Shown: positions 37,284 to 50,673 of the stretch, in pieces
Numbering within the stretch: position 1 is the first letter of the stretch
Layout of the letters: every line of letters begins with the position of its first letter
NCBI GenBank assembly: GCA_017551675.1
Contig: JAFZLC010000013.1
Span: 62,001 to 126,000, forward strand
Direction of reading: 5' to 3'
Origin: Paludibacteraceae bacterium
GTDB taxonomy: Bacteria > Bacteroidota > Bacteroidia > Bacteroidales > Paludibacteraceae
Length of the DNA: 64,000 nucleotides
The notes under the pieces: generated by a model
The model's input: the letters and a program-made list of their open reading frames with translations, nothing else
What the model was told of the DNA's origin: nothing
Database searches by the model: none
Program-made: the position numbers and the translations under genes

Positions 37284-38201
37284 ATGCAATACACTAAACT
37301 ACCTTTATCTGTTGAAGAGCAAATTTCCAAGCTTGAGAAACGAGGATTGCGTTTCTGTAATAAGTGTTTGTCTACTAAATATTTACAGAACATAAGTTAT
37401 TATAGATTACGTGCATTTACGTATCCGTTTCAAAATAACATGGATAACGCCGATCATGAATTTGTTAGGGATGATATCGATTTCATGGATGTTATTGATT
37501 TGTATGTGTTTGATAAGCGATTACGCTCCTTGGTATTCAGCGAGATTGAAAAAATAGAAGTTGCGGTACGTACAAAACTCTCGCTTTATTATTCTCTTTC
37601 TAAAAATGACGCATTGTGGTATGAAAACGAGAATATCTATAAGTCTCCTATCAAGTTTCAGAAAATAATAAGTGATATTAAGTCTGATGTTGATAGAAGT
37701 GATGAAGATTTTATCAAACATTATAGGCAAAAATACGACACTCCGTTAATGCCTCCTTCTTGGATGACTTTGGAAGTCGTTTCTTTTGGTGTACTTAGCC
37801 GATTATATAAGGAACTAATTCCAAGTGTGGAGAAACGTAGTATTGCAAATCAGTTTGGTATCGGTGATGAAAAGATCTTTGCCAATTGGTTACACGCATT
37901 TAACAATTTGCGAAATTGTTGCGCTCATCATAGTAGAATATGGAATCGACGATTTCTTGTTCAAATCAAATTGCCATACAATACAACCTCTGCATTTATC
38001 CCCCGCAAAAAGATTGCTAAAATTAGAAATAACAAATTGTTTGCAATGCTCTCTGCCATAAAGTATATTGTTGATATAATTAGTCCCGATAACTCTTTTA
38101 AGACAAATCTGATTCAATTACTCAATCAGCCTAATCGTCTCCTTTCATTAAAAGAAATGGGATTTCCCCCTGATTGGGAAACTCTACCTGTATGGAAATG
38201 A
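37284..38201 (+). CDS. abiF: AbiF/Abi_2 family abortive-infection protein (HEPN)
   Basis: A 305-residue protein. The Abi_2 N-terminal signature is clear: LPLSVEEQISKLEKRGL, then YLQNISYYRLRAFTYPFQ at 33-50, then FDKRLRSLVFSEIEKIEVAVR at 76-96. The C-terminal part has the HEPN RNase motif R-x4-H at R210-H215, in NNLRNCCAHHSRIWNR. Such proteins act against phages, probably by cutting RNA when released from control; AbiF has been proposed as an ancestor of Cas13. The gene lies between two copies of a 60-base RNA. There is no strong promoter of its own between RNA copy 1 and the ATG, so it may depend on readthrough of the RNA terminator, as in type III toxin-antitoxin loci. Base use is more AT-rich than neighbours, suggesting transfer. 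Confidence 0.88.
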   Translation: MQYTKLPLSVEEQISKLEKRGLRFCNKCLSTKYLQNISYYRLRAFTYPFQNNMDNADHEFVRDDIDFMDVIDLYVFDKRLRSLVFSEIEKIEVAVRTKLSLYYSLSKNDALWYENENIYKSPIKFQKIISDIKSDVDRSDEDFIKHYRQKYDTPLMPPSWMTLEVVSFGVLSRLYKELIPSVEKRSIANQFGIGDEKIFANWLHAFNNLRNCCAHHSRIWNRRFLVQIKLPYNTTSAFIPRKKIAKIRNNKLFAMLSAIKYIVDIISPDNSFKTNLIQLLNQPNRLLSLKEMGFPPDWETLPVWK

Positions 38202-44237: not shown

Positions 44238-46589
44238 ATGAAACAAATCAAGACAAATGTATTGGGGCTTCCCAGAATGGGACAAAACAGAGAGTTGAAA
44301 AAAGCCCTTGAAAGTTTTTGGTCGGGCAAAATTTCCGAGTCCGATTTGAAGTCGTGTGGCAAGACTATTAAGAGTTATAATTGGAAGAGACTATCTGACG
44401 CTGGGGTTTCTCTGATTCCGTCTAATGATTTCTCTTACTACGACCATGTGTTGGACTTGTCGTTAACCTTAGGTGTTATTCCTTCAAGATATAACGGACT
44501 TAAGAATGACATCACAAACCTCTATTTTGCCATGGCTCATGGTATTCAGAAAGAGGGACAGGATGTGATTGCGATGGAGATGACCAAGTGGTTCGACACA
44601 AACTATCACTATATTGTACCTGAGTTTGCCAAGAATCAACAGTTTAGCTTGTTCTATAACAAACCTTTACAGGAGTTCAATGAGGCATTAGCGCTTGGTT
44701 ATAAGACTAAACCAGTGGTGCTTGGACCTATCTCTTATTTATTGCTTGGTAAATTTGAGCATCAACACAGTGAAGAATCAGCTTGTTCATGTGGCTGTGG
44801 TGGTTCTCACAAGCATACCAATCGAGATGAAAACTTAGATTTGTTATCCAATCTATTGCCTGCATACATTGAATTATTGCAATCGTTGGAGAAGGGTGGA
44901 GCAGAGTACGTTCAGATTGACGAGCCATATCTTGCATTGGATATTACGGAGAAAACAGCTAAGGCTTATCAAGAAGCTTATAAGAAAATAGCGGAGAGTA
45001 CAACACTTAAAACAATCATCACTACCTATTTTGAAGGATTGGGTGACAATTTGGATTTGGCTGTTTCTTTGCCTGGTTATGCGTTGCATGTAGATCTTGT
45101 CAGTGATGAGAAACAGGTAGATGCTTTGTTAAAGAAACTACCTGCGGATAAGGTGCTCTCTTTGGGATTGGTAGAGGGACGAAATATTTGGATTAACGAT
45201 TTGGAGAACTCAGCCAACATCGTGAAGAAAGCAATCAATTCTTTGGGTGCAGATCGTGTGATTTTGGGTGCTTCTTGTTCCTTCTTGCATGTACCATGTG
45301 ATTTAGCGCAGGAGACCAATGAAAATAGTTTGCCATCGGAAGTGAAATCATGGCTTGCCTTTGCATGGCAGAAAGTGAATGAACTTGAGGTGGTAGCAGA
45401 GTTGGCAAGTGCTCATCCTGATGCGAAGGCGATTGAATATTTAGAAGCAAATAAGAGTGCATTGTCAGCTAGAAAGTTCTCCTCCCTTATTCACAATCAG
45501 CATGTGAAAAAGAGATTGTCAGAATTGAAACCAGAGGATGAAAGAAGAGTATCAGAATACAGTAAACGTGCCGTTCTTCAACATAAAAGACTAACCTTAC
45601 CTCTATATCCGACCACAACCATCGGTTCTTTCCCTCAAACGAAGGAGGTTAGAGCATGGCGTTCTTTACATAAGAAGGGACAGATGTCGGATGCAGAATA
45701 CAAGTCTAATTTGCAAAAAGCTATCAAGGATTGTATCGAATGGCAAGAAGAAATCGGCCTTGATTGCTTGGTTCATGGAGAGTTTGAACGTAATGACATG
45801 GTGGAGTATTTCGGAGAGCAATTAGCAGGATTTGCCTTTACACAGAATGGTTGGGTTCAGAGCTATGGTTCCCGTTGCGTGAAACCACCCGTTATCTTTG
45901 GTGATGTGAGTCGTCCGTTCCCAATGACAGTAGAGTGGAGTAGTTATGCTCAGAGTCTGACGAAGAAGCATGTAAAAGGAATGTTGACGGGACCTGTCAC
46001 GATTTTGAAGTGGTCGTTTGTCAGAAATGACCAACCATTGTCAGAGACTTGCAAGCAGATAGCTTTGGCTATCAGAGATGAGGTGTCCGACCTCGAAAAG
46101 GCTGGTATAGCTATCATACAGATTGATGAGCCTGCCATCAGGGAGGCGTTGCCATTGCGTCATGCAAAATGGGATGAATATTTTAAATGGGCGGTTAGTA
46201 GTTTCCGTATCTCCTCTTCTTCCGTTTCTGATGCCACACAGATACACACTCACATGTGCTATTCTGAGTTCAATGATATCATTCGTGAGATTGCGGATAT
46301 GGATGCCGATGTGATTACGATAGAGTGTTCACGTTCTCAAATGGAACTTTTGGATGTCTTCCATGAGTTTGAATATCCAAATGAGATTGGACCTGGTGTG
46401 TATGATATCCACTCTGCACGTGTGCCATCTGTTGAGGAGATTGTGAATCTGATGGAGAAGGCTAAGAAGTTGATACCGGCAGAACGTCTTTGGGTCAACC
46501 CGGATTGTGGATTAAAGACAAGAGGATGGGAAGAAACACGTCTCTCTTTGATTAACATGGTGAAGGCTGCTGTGTTGTTAAGAAAATAG
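44238..46589 (+). CDS. metE: Cobalamin-independent methionine synthase
   Basis: A 783-residue zinc enzyme that methylates homocysteine with 5-methyltetrahydropteroyl-polyglutamate. Two barrel domains; the C-terminal one has the zinc ligands in HTHMCYSEFND (His and Cys), ITIECSRSQME (Glu) and VNPDCGLKTRGW (Cys). The N-terminal domain opens LGLPRMGQNRELKKALESFW. Odd feature: residues 174-196 form a Cys/His-rich insertion with three cysteines at 183, 185 and 187 and histidines at 175, 177, 191 and 193, where typical MetE has a short plain loop after the LLLGK strand. It could bind metal. The enzyme frees methionine synthesis from B12. Confidence 0.94.
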   Translation: MKQIKTNVLGLPRMGQNRELKKALESFWSGKISESDLKSCGKTIKSYNWKRLSDAGVSLIPSNDFSYYDHVLDLSLTLGVIPSRYNGLKNDITNLYFAMAHGIQKEGQDVIAMEMTKWFDTNYHYIVPEFAKNQQFSLFYNKPLQEFNEALALGYKTKPVVLGPISYLLLGKFEHQHSEESACSCGCGGSHKHTNRDENLDLLSNLLPAYIELLQSLEKGGAEYVQIDEPYLALDITEKTAKAYQEAYKKIAESTTLKTIITTYFEGLGDNLDLAVSLPGYALHVDLVSDEKQVDALLKKLPADKVLSLGLVEGRNIWINDLENSANIVKKAINSLGADRVILGASCSFLHVPCDLAQETNENSLPSEVKSWLAFAWQKVNELEVVAELASAHPDAKAIEYLEANKSALSARKFSSLIHNQHVKKRLSELKPEDERRVSEYSKRAVLQHKRLTLPLYPTTTIGSFPQTKEVRAWRSLHKKGQMSDAEYKSNLQKAIKDCIEWQEEIGLDCLVHGEFERNDMVEYFGEQLAGFAFTQNGWVQSYGSRCVKPPVIFGDVSRPFPMTVEWSSYAQSLTKKHVKGMLTGPVTILKWSFVRNDQPLSETCKQIALAIRDEVSDLEKAGIAIIQIDEPAIREALPLRHAKWDEYFKWAVSSFRISSSSVSDATQIHTHMCYSEFNDIIREIADMDADVITIECSRSQMELLDVFHEFEYPNEIGPGVYDIHSARVPSVEEIVNLMEKAKKLIPAERLWVNPDCGLKTRGWEETRLSLINMVKAAVLLRK

Positions 46590-46621: not shown

Positions 46622-46776
46622 GAAAATGAAAAAGAGATAGATATATTCGGAATAAATTACTACCTTTGTGAAAAAGGTGTACAAAAAATGAACAATACAG
46701 AGTATGTGGGTAATCGAGCACATATTACAAGATGAAATGTTTTTTGTACTAATATTAATTCCGAATATTTCTATAT

Positions 46777-47694
46777 ATGAATACAAAATCAAAATATTCT
46801 CTACGTTTCTGTGCAATTATTGGATTTCTCGTTTTAATGGAAATTCTTTTTTGCGCATTCGTTATATTCGGTGAGAAGCAACATCTTTTGTTTTTAATAC
46901 TGATTGTGCCGTTTTTTCTAGTTGCTAAATGGATATTGAAATTCTATAAAGTATTTCCTTCTGTTACGATAACTAATGATGAAATTGTACTTGACTATTT
47001 GATGGGGAGCAAACGTATCTCAATCGATGATGTTTGCGAATTTCAGTTGACAGATAGTTTCCCTATATCCAAATGGGTTAATCCGCAGGAAACGAATGGA
47101 TTTTCTATAAGTACAAAGGAAGAAGAACAATATATATTCTATGAAAAATATTACAAGAATCCACATGAGCTAAGAGCTATATTTGCACAAATTACAAACA
47201 TGAACTTTGAGCCTAGAAATTCTGCGATTGATAATCCTTTGACTTCATTTTCAGGTCCGATATCGTTTAAGTTCGAAATAATAAACATTGCTATAGGTTT
47301 GATATTGTTTTTTGTGTCGTTGCTGTTCGATTTGCCATATGGAACAGGAGTATTATTCGTTATTTCTATTGTCTGTATATGTGTTGGTTGTTCTATGATA
47401 TTTGATAACATACGTGATTTCTTAACAATAGAGGTGGAAGGTGAGGAAATCCGTTTCAAACGCTTGTTGTCCGGTAAGGTGATTACAGCAAACCTTAATG
47501 ATATCCTTACCTGCAATCTCTCTTTTTTGAGTATTTACAATGGATACACTGGCATTGCTTTTAGTTATATTACACCCGATTATAGACGGAATGTTATAAA
47601 AGGATCAAATCTGAAAGCTGAAGTGTGGAATGAACTTGTAGAGATACTAGAAAAAAATGGTGTGCCAGTCACTGGTGTTACTATTGATAGTTGA
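46777..47694 (+). CDS. Membrane protein with two PH-like domains (copy 1)
   Basis: Not assigned to a named family. The 305-residue protein has two pairs of membrane helices (about 10-50 and 165-205), each followed by a small beta domain of bacterial-PH type. The first is FPSVTITNDEIVLDYLMGSKRI with DVCEFQLTDSFPISKW; the second is FLTIEVEGEEIRFKRLLSGKV with a final helix WNELVEILEKNG. A close paralogue is at 49101-49991. The lipoprotein gene follows after 22 bases. The module looks like an envelope system of unknown role. Confidence 0.65.
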   Translation: MNTKSKYSLRFCAIIGFLVLMEILFCAFVIFGEKQHLLFLILIVPFFLVAKWILKFYKVFPSVTITNDEIVLDYLMGSKRISIDDVCEFQLTDSFPISKWVNPQETNGFSISTKEEEQYIFYEKYYKNPHELRAIFAQITNMNFEPRNSAIDNPLTSFSGPISFKFEIINIAIGLILFFVSLLFDLPYGTGVLFVISIVCICVGCSMIFDNIRDFLTIEVEGEEIRFKRLLSGKVITANLNDILTCNLSFLSIYNGYTGIAFSYITPDYRRNVIKGSNLKAEVWNELVEILEKNGVPVTGVTIDS

Positions 47695-47716
47695 TAAAAC
47701 AAAAATATATATAGAT

Positions 47717-48952
47717 ATGCATAAACCATTCATTCATTACAAGCATTGTTGCTTTTCTCTTCGAGTATTACTTATACTCCCGTTTTTATTTATGATGAGT
47801 AGTTGTAGTCATACAAGTGAAAAAAGAATAATGACTACGAATGATACTATAGGTTATAACTGTATTGCCTATTGGGTGCATGGCTATATGAAGCATATAG
47901 GAGAAATACCGACGAAAGAAGAATTTCTAGAGTATAATGATGTAGGGGATGCTGTGGAGTCTTATTTGGGTATTAAGGGAGAACATTTAGAAAAAATTCT
48001 TTCGGATACGCTATATCAAGAGCTTGATTATACAGAAATATTTCAGTGTACTTCTGCTTCGTCTTTTGAGTTTGCTACGCCACAAGGCATCTTTATTGCA
48101 TCTAATTACTTGTTGACGCATCCAACTATACAATTTATCAATCAGGACTCTTGTTTGCTTGTTGTGGATAGTACAGTGTATGAACATGATGGTTCGATAG
48201 CGAAAATGTCTCTCTCTATGCCGGAAGTTATGATTAAGGATTCTGCTTACTACTACAAGGGCGTAAAACTTTCGTCTATAAAAGAATATGATAATAAAGC
48301 ATTCTTTGAAATTGATGCACCCAATAGACCTATTCTCATAGATTATAATTCACCAGTGGAACTGATAGACACTTTGTGTACATATTTTTTTGGTATATAT
48401 AAGGTAAGAACTAAACCTATAGGACGTGGCGATAAGTATATCTGTCTGTATCATTCGGCTCCTCATGTACGTGAGGCTGATTCTGTTTCGAACTTGCCAG
48501 TTTATGTATTAACAGATTCTTTAAAACAGATAATAGGATATATTGACGAATATGAATTAGATGAGGAACCTCCTTTTGATATGCAACCTACGTCTCCTTT
48601 TGAACAAAATGATGAAGTAATGAAACAAGTTGATGATGAAGCTCTATTAAAAAAGTTTGTTTATGATGTTCAACGTGCACAATCGGTAATTTATCGAAGC
48701 AATGATACTATCTATTTGAATGGGAAACCAGTAAATGATAGTTGTAGTGTGAATGAGAAATCAATCCTTATTGATTTGACGCACGATAATACATATAGGG
48801 ATGTATGTGAAATTGCTCGATTCCTTATAAAGAAGACATCATCAAAAGACTTTAAACGTTCTAGATATTATTTCAAATCTGATGACAAGATATATAAGTA
48901 CCTTATAAATAAACATCCGGAATGGAAAGTAAAAGTTACTTCTGATGATTGA
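47717..48952 (+). CDS. Lipoprotein of unknown function
   Basis: A 411-residue lipoprotein from the ATG at 47717. This start gives the signal peptide and lipobox (FLFMMSSC); the TTG/GTG frame extension upstream overlaps the previous gene. No domain is recognised after the cysteine. The protein is mostly beta with many Asp, Tyr and Ser and ends in a basic helix (KYLINKHPEWKVKV). Its 5' end is repeated in broken form at 48979-49100, which shows that the gene pair was duplicated. Confidence 0.65.
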   Translation: MHKPFIHYKHCCFSLRVLLILPFLFMMSSCSHTSEKRIMTTNDTIGYNCIAYWVHGYMKHIGEIPTKEEFLEYNDVGDAVESYLGIKGEHLEKILSDTLYQELDYTEIFQCTSASSFEFATPQGIFIASNYLLTHPTIQFINQDSCLLVVDSTVYEHDGSIAKMSLSMPEVMIKDSAYYYKGVKLSSIKEYDNKAFFEIDAPNRPILIDYNSPVELIDTLCTYFFGIYKVRTKPIGRGDKYICLYHSAPHVREADSVSNLPVYVLTDSLKQIIGYIDEYELDEEPPFDMQPTSPFEQNDEVMKQVDDEALLKKFVYDVQRAQSVIYRSNDTIYLNGKPVNDSCSVNEKSILIDLTHDNTYRDVCEIARFLIKKTSSKDFKRSRYYFKSDDKIYKYLINKHPEWKVKVTSDD

Positions 48953-48978
48953 TAAAATAACAAAAATGTATCATAGAT

Positions 48979-49100
48979 ATGCATAACCCATTCACCCATG
49001 CCAAGCATTGTATCTTTTCTCTTCGAGTATTATTTATACTCCCTTCTTATTTGTGATGAGGAGTTGTAGTCATACAAGTGTAAAAAGAATACTGAATAAC
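48979..49100 (+). pseudogene. Broken 5' end of a second lipoprotein copy
   Basis: Reading from the ATG at 48979 gives MHNPFTHAKHCIFSLRVLFI, nearly the same as the start of the intact lipoprotein, then a frameshift and stop. After the shift the lipobox (MRSCSHTSVKR) is readable in another frame, and the copy then passes straight into the second membrane-protein gene. The rest of the lipoprotein has been deleted. Confidence 0.75.
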
Positions 49101-49991
49101 ATGAATACAAAATCAAAATATACTCTACGTTTCTGTGCAATTATTGGAATGATCCTTTTCTTGGAAATTCTTTTATGCGTACTTCTTTTATTCTTGTTGA
49201 GTAATAATCATTATCAGTTGTCTTTAATGCTGATTGTGTCGATTTTTCTAGTTGGTTGGTGGATGCAGAAATACTTTAAAGTAGTTCCACCTGTTACGAT
49301 AACTAACACAGAGATTATCATCGGCTATTGGGTGTGGTCTAAACGTATCTCAATCGATGATGTTTGCGAATTTCAATTGACAGATAGTTTCCCTATATCA
49401 AAATGGATTTCGGGAGATCGTGTGACGAATGGTTTTTCAATAAGGACAAAGGCGGATGAGGAATATGTATTCTATGAAAGATTTTACAAAAATCCACATG
49501 AATTAAGAGCTAGATTTGCACAGATTACAAACATGAACTTTGTACCTAGAGATTCTGCGATCGATAATCCTTTTACTTCGCTTACTTCTCCTTTGTCATT
49601 TAAAATCGAGATAATATTATTCTGGGTGTCCATTGTTCTAGCCATACTCTTTTTTTTCTTAGCTAAATCACCTGGATATGAATACTTGTTTTTTCTCTCT
49701 TTTCTTTTTATTTTATTTGCTTTTGTTATTGTTGGTTCGATATATGAAGACAAACGAAACTTCATAACAATTGTTGAAGTGGAAGGTAAAGAGATTCGTT
49801 TCAAATACAATTTTCCATCCAGTAGAGTAATAACAGTAAACATTAATGATATCATCACCTGCAATTTCATTGTCTTGAATGATTTAGAAATTGGTTTTGT
49901 TTATATTACACCTGATTTTAGACGAGTTGTTATAAAAGGATCAAATCCTGTGTGGACTGAGCTTATAGTGATACTAGATGCCAGTCACTGA
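49101..49991 (+). CDS. Membrane protein with two PH-like domains (copy 2)
   Basis: A 296-residue paralogue of the protein at 46777-47694, with the same start (MNTKSKYTLRFCAIIG) and the shared SKRISIDDVCEFQLTDSF, FYKNPHELRARFAQITNMNF and SSRVITVNINDIITCN blocks. Four membrane helices, with two PH-like domains placed as in copy 1. An upstream in-frame extension to 49008 is not the start, because it is made of the broken lipoprotein remnant. The copies have diverged more in the second membrane pair than in the first PH-like domain. Confidence 0.65.
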   Translation: MNTKSKYTLRFCAIIGMILFLEILLCVLLLFLLSNNHYQLSLMLIVSIFLVGWWMQKYFKVVPPVTITNTEIIIGYWVWSKRISIDDVCEFQLTDSFPISKWISGDRVTNGFSIRTKADEEYVFYERFYKNPHELRARFAQITNMNFVPRDSAIDNPFTSLTSPLSFKIEIILFWVSIVLAILFFFLAKSPGYEYLFFLSFLFILFAFVIVGSIYEDKRNFITIVEVEGKEIRFKYNFPSSRVITVNINDIITCNFIVLNDLEIGFVYITPDFRRVVIKGSNPVWTELIVILDASH

Positions 49992-50049: not shown

Positions 50050-50077
50050 GTAGAGACGCACGGCCGTGCGTCTCTAC
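50050..50077. repeat. Perfect 28-bp REP-like palindrome with GTAG head
   Basis: GTAGAGACGCACGG followed directly by its reverse complement. Lies between the convergent membrane-protein and vor genes, six bases from the vor terminator. Sequences of this GTAG type are repeated in many bacterial genomes. Confidence 0.75.
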
Positions 50078-50136: not shown

Positions 50137-50673
50137 TTACTTAATAATCTCCATTCCTTTTTTCAAGGCAGCCTCATTCATTGGGATGAGGTGGTGGTGA
50201 CGTTCAGGAAGGGTTTTCTTCAAACCTTTCAATACATTTTCCAACTCTACGATAGGTCTGATTTTCAAGAATCCACCTAATAGAATCATGTTGAAGGATT
50301 TAGCTGCATTCATTTCGATGCAGGCATCCATTGCATTGATTTTGTGGATGTTGATATCTGTTCTGGTTGGTTCTGTAGTGATTCCGTATGGATCGTAGAT
50401 CAATGTTCCACCAGGCTTAACAGACTTTTCAAACTTGTCCAATGATTGTTGGTTCAAGATGATAGCCGTGTCGTAAGAGTTTAAGATAGGGGAACTGATT
50501 TTCTCGTCACTTAAGATAACGGTTACGTTGGCAGTACCACCACGTTGTTCAGGACCGTATGCAGGCATCCAAGTAACTTCCTTGCCTTGCATCAAACCAG
50601 AGTAAGCAAGAATCTTACCCATAGAGAGAACTCCTTGTCCTCCGAATCCAGCTATGATGATTTCTTCTTTCAT
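50137..50673 (-). CDS. 2-oxoacid:ferredoxin oxidoreductase, gamma subunit
   Basis: A 178-residue gamma subunit. The N-terminal nucleotide/CoA-binding motif is IIAGFGGQGVLSMGKIL, followed by PAYGPEQRGGTANVTV near 38-53 and a C-terminal helix pair. It is the last gene of a four-gene operon (ferredoxin, alpha, beta, gamma) with gaps of 6 to 22 bases. The complex oxidatively decarboxylates a 2-oxoacid to its acyl-CoA and reduces ferredoxin. Confidence 0.9.
   Translation of the reverse strand: MKEEIIIAGFGGQGVLSMGKILAYSGLMQGKEVTWMPAYGPEQRGGTANVTVILSDEKISSPILNSYDTAIILNQQSLDKFEKSVKPGGTLIYDPYGITTEPTRTDINIHKINAMDACIEMNAAKSFNMILLGGFLKIRPIVELENVLKGLKKTLPERHHHLIPMNEAALKKGMEIIK

Follow-up and report, generated by a model that had tools for sequence, protein, structure and literature searches.

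A variable tandem array of membrane-protein and lipoprotein genes beside porG in a Paludibacteraceae genome, probably shaped by recombination and exchange between species

Two related membrane-protein genes (M1 and M2), a lipoprotein gene (L) and the 5′ remnant of a second lipoprotein gene (r) lie at positions 46777-49991 of a 64,000-nucleotide stretch of a Paludibacteraceae genome (assembly GCA_017551675.1, contig JAFZLC010000013.1, positions 62,001 to 126,000 of the forward strand). This whole stretch is called the window below, and its numbering is used throughout. The region is very probably one state of a recombining tandem M/L array that occupies a variable site beside porG-porB-porA in rumen Bacteroidales. 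An earlier reading made from the sequence alone had proposed a single tandem duplication with one copy broken; we find instead an older array that has been recombined and exchanged between species and whose L gene is a chimera. We also propose a protective function for the array, and regard the whole explanation, history and function together, as possible though somewhat doubtful.

Organization of the array

The host genome (3.3 Mb in 58 contigs) carries the array as four same-direction features between the genes that we take, from their sequence, to be metE (44238-46589) and the convergent porG (50137-50673) of the por genes. Open reading frames (ORFs) were found where the sequence-only reading had placed M1, L, the broken lipoprotein start and M2. 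Comparisons below are mainly with three relatives designated G139, G091 and G151. The features are:

46777-47694, + strand: M1, ORF for a 305-aa membrane protein, a paralogue of M2, characterized by a weak structure model, fold matches and hydropathy
47717-48952, + strand: L, ORF for a 411-aa lipoprotein with the motif MSSC (Cys30), a chimera of two paralogues with its breakpoint near 48191
48935-48978, + strand: L-r junction, the final L codons and spacer, resembling in local alignment an M-gene 3′ tail plus an M-L spacer
48979-49095 (end approximate), + strand: r, 5′ remnant of a second lipoprotein gene, with a 25-codon ORF (48979-49056), a stop, and the remainder in another frame
49056-49100, + strand: possible alternative start of M2 (ATG at 49056), overlapping the r stop as TGATG in the M2 frame and adding 15 residues, suggested by sequence alone
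49101-49991, + strand: M2, 296-aa paralogue of M1, with a shorter C terminus than in G139 and G091

Recombination and exchange

First, the window L is itself recombinant. The window sides with one or the other of the two G091 lipoproteins (L1 and L2) at 212 sites that distinguish them: of the 48 informative sites left of 48191, 41 are L2-like, and of the 164 to its right, 155 are L1-like, a partition reached by 0 of 20,000 permutations. Two lipoprotein paralogues have contributed to this chimeric gene, with the switch near 48191. The M-L-r-M order of the window would follow from unequal crossing-over of an L2-type with an L1-type gene.

Second, the block comprising the end of L, r and M2 is, by synonymous divergence (dS), recently exchanged between species, because the dS of M2 between the window and G091 (0.054) is far below that of the adjacent porG (0.301) and of four core genes (Fd 0.778, porB 1.066, porA 1.101, DMT 1.689). 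In 120-bp windows along the same comparison, identity is high from the last third of L via r and M2 into porG, and drops in porB. Against G139 the M2 dS is 0.035, while metE (0.429), DMT (0.409) and a third gene fall in the range 0.41-0.49 and CotH stands at 0.80.

Third, M1 also looks mosaic. Its 5′ end is close to that of M2 (dS 0.128 in the first 61 codons, against 0.51-1.63 in the three other regions). By the same measure M1 of G139 and M1 of G091 are close to each other (dS 0.18) but not to the window M1, from which they differ by 0.74-0.80. A recent duplication of M1 into M2 was considered and rejected: the M1-M2 dS of 0.53 is about or above the G139 distance in the three genes at 0.41-0.49, with CotH at 0.80. 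Judged by these distances the M paralogues are old, and the window holds an older array, recombined and exchanged between species, rather than the outcome of one local duplication.

The remnant of a second lipoprotein gene

The 25-codon ORF of r (48979-49056) runs from MHNPF to PSYL before its stop, and the lipobox region (FVMRSCSHTSVKRILNN) continues in a second frame that is open into M2. The sequence-only reading took r for the frameshifted 5′ remnant of a second lipoprotein gene, with signal peptide and lipobox spread over two frames, and alignment bears this out: r matches the start of the L gene over 121 bp (87.6% DNA identity, E ~1e-37). The alignment used the r shared by G091 and G139, all 148 bp of which agree with the window r. 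The likeness reaches ~40 bp 5′ of both start codons (score 48 against a maximum of 40, with 0 of 500 dinucleotide shuffles reaching it), and is therefore not a chance match between signal peptides.

The spacer just 5′ of r resembles an M-L spacer plus an M-gene tail (local alignment score 48, against a maximum of 40 in 500 shuffles), and r ends close to the M2 start. From these two features we infer the loss of an M gene (M′) and of a lipoprotein body (L′): deletions would have removed M′ and the greater part of L′ from an ancestral array M1-L1-M′-L′-M2-L2, with r as what is left. In line with such deletions, the last L residues, VTSDD, fall in the M-like tail and are missing from the second lipoprotein of G091 and from L relatives of other lineages.

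The remnant is not decay private to this genome, since an identical r occurs in two other species of the genus (G139 and G091). It is best read as a single event spread by exchange, because the synonymous distances and the 120-bp identity windows delimit an exchanged block. Independent decay in each species was considered as well, and is ruled out by the recent exchange of that block (dS, identity windows and identical r). Whatever the array does, the same broken gene scrap has thus come to three species by exchange and not by three events, which cautions against reading remnants as local decay.

Alternatively, r could be a working 25-codon leader whose stop, overlapping the alternative M2 start as TGATG, couples M2 translation and adds 15 residues. 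A 250-bp run without a difference in the three species (48930-49179) was equalled in 38 of 5000 column shuffles (p 0.0076), and the r stop does overlap an ATG in the M2 frame. However, a block-wise shuffle gives p 0.031 for a run that was chosen after seeing the data, and the Met-Met of the lipoprotein signal sequence accounts for the stop/start overlap. The run also covers the M2 start, with zero dS between the window and G091 over the first 61-63 codons, so that patchy recent exchange explains it as well as a leader does. The r sequence itself shows no variation. We consider a leader function quite improbable.

Distribution and array states

M was found in 4 of the 16 genus genomes, the host among them (3 of 13 when genomes under 90% completeness are set aside), in 5 of 300 family genomes, and in 1 of 344 order genomes, the host itself. 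The family count includes a 50-residue match in G118 over a membrane segment (E 3.6e-4), which was later dropped as probable chance. L was found in 6 of the 16 genus genomes plus three genomes of two other family genera (9 of 300 family genomes; 9 of 200 relatives), and in 1 of 338 order genomes, again the host. A scan of named genomes gave 0 of 66 stretches with M1 and 7 of 36 with the L alignment. The seven named L counterparts come from metagenome assemblies, entered under uncultured Bacteroidales or Paludibacteraceae; three have rumen or reticulum in their titles, and the RUG and RUI names likewise indicate the rumen. Viral contigs yielded no match (M 0/134; L 0/66), nor did plasmids searched with L as sole query or phages searched with M1 as sole query. 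A literature search for tandem lipoprotein duplication in Paludibacteraceae found no paper.

The sequence-only reading had asked whether the pair recurs elsewhere in unequal copy number. Array states do differ among relatives: G139 has M1-L1-r-M2, G091 a partial M0 and then M1-L1-r-M2-L2, and the window M1-L-r-M2. The pair is not obligatory: G151 has one M and no L, and L stands without M in, for example, G054, G003 and G062. The partial third M gene of G091, M0 (stretch L029, 10939-11478), encodes 179 aa, and an opposite-strand membrane-protein gene lies between it and M1. Indeed G139, G151 and G091 all have an opposite-direction membrane-protein gene beside M1, and the window has none there.

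The porG neighbourhood was fetched in 10 of the 12 genus genomes without M, and other genes occupy the site. Among the stretches of relatives, L080, L082 and L085 carry adjacent pairs of related ~700-aa secreted proteins near porG (the first protein of the L085 pair is truncated where the stretch stops), a further instance of a tandem pair at the variable site. A second membrane-protein family of ~250-300 aa lies next to porG in L031 (4838-5608), L080, L083, L084 and L085; four of its proteins were scanned and matched no Pfam family above chance.

The membrane proteins

M1 and M2 are paralogous, as the sequence-only reading held, with 165 of 303 aligned residues identical (54%, E 4e-98); no sign of unrelatedness appears in the alignment. 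That both are full length holds in part: M2 is still open, but at 296 aa it falls short of the G091 (307 aa) and G139 (313 aa) counterparts, having lost part of its C terminus to a small deletion close to the 3′ end (49945-49991).

The N terminus of each M protein is positively charged; two hydrophobic regions follow, each succeeded by a soluble part. Hydropathy exceeds 1.6 at residues 7-60 and 160-213 of M1 and at 6-38 and 163-217 of M2; each region has space for a helix pair, the second helix of M2 staying under the threshold. The predicted order is a hydrophobic pair, a PH-like domain, a second hydrophobic pair and a second beta-rich domain.

Two PH-like domains had been claimed for each protein. 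The first (residues ~58-147) is supported by fold comparison with a weak structure model built from 7 sequences (mean predicted local distance difference test score, pLDDT, 48.7). In VIA-align it reaches Z up to 8.2 over 76-77 residues at a root-mean-square deviation of 2.5-3.0, and 3 of 991 chains reach Z 8, below which Z may reflect merely a common arrangement. Foldseek returned 544 matches at E <=10 and none at E <=0.001; most of the best 50 of the 544 are PH-fold proteins by title, and the top row is p40phox (probability 0.13). The second soluble domain has a strand/helix order that suits PH, in low-confidence predicted secondary structure, but the two halves are not detectably similar in sequence: an internal repeat was rejected as unsupported after scoring 22.2 in hhalign, where the best of 30 column shuffles reached 22.4. 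Each M protein may consist of two units, both made of a transmembrane hairpin and a PH-like domain, with fold support for the first PH domain alone.

Neither M nor L was named by Pfam, NCBIfam or PADLOC, in agreement with the earlier statement that no described system matches. Weak matches of M were not used: DUF2244 (1 of 8 members, best E 0.017), DUF2207_C (7 of 8 members, best E 0.092, over the membrane segment in the members shown) and an NCBIfam best of E 0.015. The sole PADLOC match, of M2 to a 4TM effector model (E 0.97), is at chance level. Searches of solved structures by sequence gave a single row each for M (E 0.13) and L (E 0.024), both judged chance.

The lipoprotein

L has one N-terminal hydrophobic segment. 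Its Cys30 is conserved in all 9 aligned sequences, and SHTSEKR follows the lipobox. The structure model (mean pLDDT 40.5) is too weak for use, and a fold search with it gave nothing usable (best E 0.88). An ExbD-like reading of the C-terminal part, made by eye, was rejected on that search and on finding no Pfam match.

Two of the nine aligned L sequences, those of G103 and G074, correspond to L in their N-terminal part (31% aligned identity) and end in a TonB_C domain (E 1.4e-18), whereas the window L has no TonB_C match in Pfam. In stretches L035 (6983-7852) and L036 (6239-7108), the N-terminal part of L is joined to a TonB C-terminal domain and adjoins a leucine-rich-repeat protein. This swap may hint at the role of L.

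It has to be considered whether L is a phage receptor or another exposed antigen, with the array as a device for variation. The gene is fast-evolving and chimeric, as an antigen gene might be. Surface lipoproteins carry an acidic export signal after the lipobox, however, which SHTSEKR lacks, and TonB_C, present in the two L relatives, is a periplasmic module. We regard an antigenic role as very improbable.

Selection

The sequence-only reading supposed that selection keeps both membrane proteins. The ratio of nonsynonymous to synonymous divergence (dN/dS) for whole genes is 0.34-0.68 in M (21 pairs from 7 of the 8 M genes, the partial M0 being left out), that is ~0.5, and 0.52-0.96 in L (6 pairs). 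Core genes range from 0 to 0.091, in eight genes against G139 and G151 and in five against G091, whose fetched stretch lacks the other three. M and L are, on these ratios, constrained but fast-evolving, and M is far less constrained than the neighbouring core genes.

By region, seven M pairs give dN/dS of 0.11-0.53 in the first PH domain, 0.46-2.0 in transmembrane segments (TM) 1-2, 0.37-1.04 in TM3-4 and 0.24-1.56 in the second soluble domain, values that are rough because the regions are small, changes are few and the history is mosaic. The window M2 and the G091 M2 have no synonymous change in either TM region, and hence no ratio there. Many residues of the first PH domain are invariant across M paralogues.

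Sequences flanking the array

46643-46675, + strand: upstream stretch of 33 bp (87.9% over 33 bp), common to the region just 5′ of M1 in G091, G139 and G151
50050-50077, no strand: perfect 28-bp palindrome 3′ of M2, a possible terminator or dispersed repeat

The upstream stretch contains TACCTTTG at 46661-46668, a putative promoter element of M1 which fits the Bacteroidota -7 element TAnnTTTG. The palindrome occurs at 11 places in the host genome at <=2 mismatches (control 0). In G091, near copies fall within the 3′ end of partial M0 (L029, 10948-11005), where the repeat may mark the break of that gene. Elsewhere in the window, a gene of the Abi_2 family (37284-38201; PF07751, E 2.2e-56) encodes an abortive-infection-type protein and is not linked to the array.

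Proposed function

M would be an inner-membrane protein whose PH-like parts lie in the cytoplasm, and L would be lipid-anchored and face the periplasm. Together they would protect the envelope from a membrane-active antagonist, either a secreted peptide or an injected effector, and specificity would reside in the variable membrane segments and in L. Protection of the envelope is put forward by analogy, as a doubtful proposal. Its fullest form, an undescribed envelope-protection module of rumen Bacteroidales in which two-unit (transmembrane hairpin plus PH-like) inner-membrane proteins are paired with periplasm-facing lipoproteins, vary through unequal crossing-over and pass from species to species, with r retained as a short leader coupled to M2, we consider decidedly unlikely.

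Several observations weigh against the explanation as a whole, history and function together. First, ORF lists read by eye without a short-peptide search (ORFs of at least 60 aa at 42-54 kb and at least 200 aa at 1-42 kb) showed no recognisable toxin, bacteriocin or secretion gene next to the array. Second, neither M nor L matches a defence or immunity family in Pfam, NCBIfam or PADLOC, and a search of the genome found no bPH_2 or bPH_8 match for M. Third, the models of M and L are weak (mean pLDDT 48.7 and 40.5), and the two genes are often apart. Fourth, the low-dS tract between the window and G139 also covers porG (0.009), porB (0.069) and porA (0.157), and G151, where L, r and M2 are absent, is just as close over the por tract; exchange thus reached the neighbourhood and was not confined to the array. 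Fifth, whole-gene dN/dS is below 1 in all pairs, so that relaxed constraint fits as well as an arms race. Finally, the PH proteins treated in PMC8657885 export a bacteriocin.

A possible objection to any dedicated function is that the genes are dispensable, weakly constrained cargo at a recombination-prone intergenic site, coming, going and recombining under little selection. The elevated dN/dS is as expected of cargo, as are the presence of M in just 4 of the 16 genus genomes, the other genes at the site in the 10 of the remaining 12 whose site was fetched, the partial M0 of G091 and the shortened M2 of the window. Yet the first PH domain keeps dN/dS at 0.11-0.53 and many residues invariant across paralogues, M1, M2 and L have uninterrupted frames in each of the three species that carry M and L together, and repeated exchange between species suggests a benefit. 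We take the cargo explanation to be a serious possibility, though short of probable, and at least as likely as envelope protection.

M could instead be a component for transport or export that moves a small peptide or lipid across the inner membrane, like YdbS/YdbT or DdE/DdF, with L as periplasmic partner. A hydrophobic pair and then a PH-like domain, the layout predicted for M, is similar to the 2TM + bPH2 units, one in YdbS and three in YdbT, described in PMC8657885. But M has no bPH_2 match, its partner gene encodes a lipoprotein and not a second PH protein, it occurs without L, and no peptide gene was recognised, short ORFs not having been searched. Transport seems unlikely.

If envelope protection is the true function, Gram-negative gut bacteria have a PH-domain membrane shield comparable in design to the bacteriocin-handling proteins of Gram-positives, and the natural recombinant alleles would serve for mapping specificity.

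Comparison with known systems

The analogy to protection draws on two kinds of system. Membrane proteins with PH domains in a similar layout are linked to the handling of leaderless bacteriocins in Gram-positives (PMC8657885, PMC11580447, PMC7332713). YdbS, YdbT, DdE and DdF, of Bacillus subtilis and Enterococcus faecalis, are built of 2TM + bPH2 units and tied to bacteriocin handling; two TM helices are followed by a PH-type domain, once in YdbS and three times in YdbT (PMC8657885), a layout that M may share. M differs in having two predicted units, with fold support for the first only, a lipoprotein neighbour and no bPH_2 match. In the searches made it is also found in one genus only, discounting a 50-residue match judged to be chance. 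The bPH_2 profile (PF03703) gave no match in the host genome at E <=10, while the control matched in 7 of 14 known genomes.

SunI is the immunity protein to sublancin (PMC6391423). The SunI-like bPH_8 family (PF23491) weakly matched 2 of the 8 M proteins (best E 0.29), and its profile gave no match in the host genome at E <=10, with the control matching in 6 of 14.

The second kind is the orphan immunity genes called rAID, which form fast-evolving arrays that protect gut Bacteroidales from effectors of the type VI secretion system (PMC12247911). The fast-evolving array described here resembles them in this respect. The rAID arrays are recombinase-associated, and the proteins studied carry SUKH domains (PMC12247911), whereas M and L match no Pfam family.

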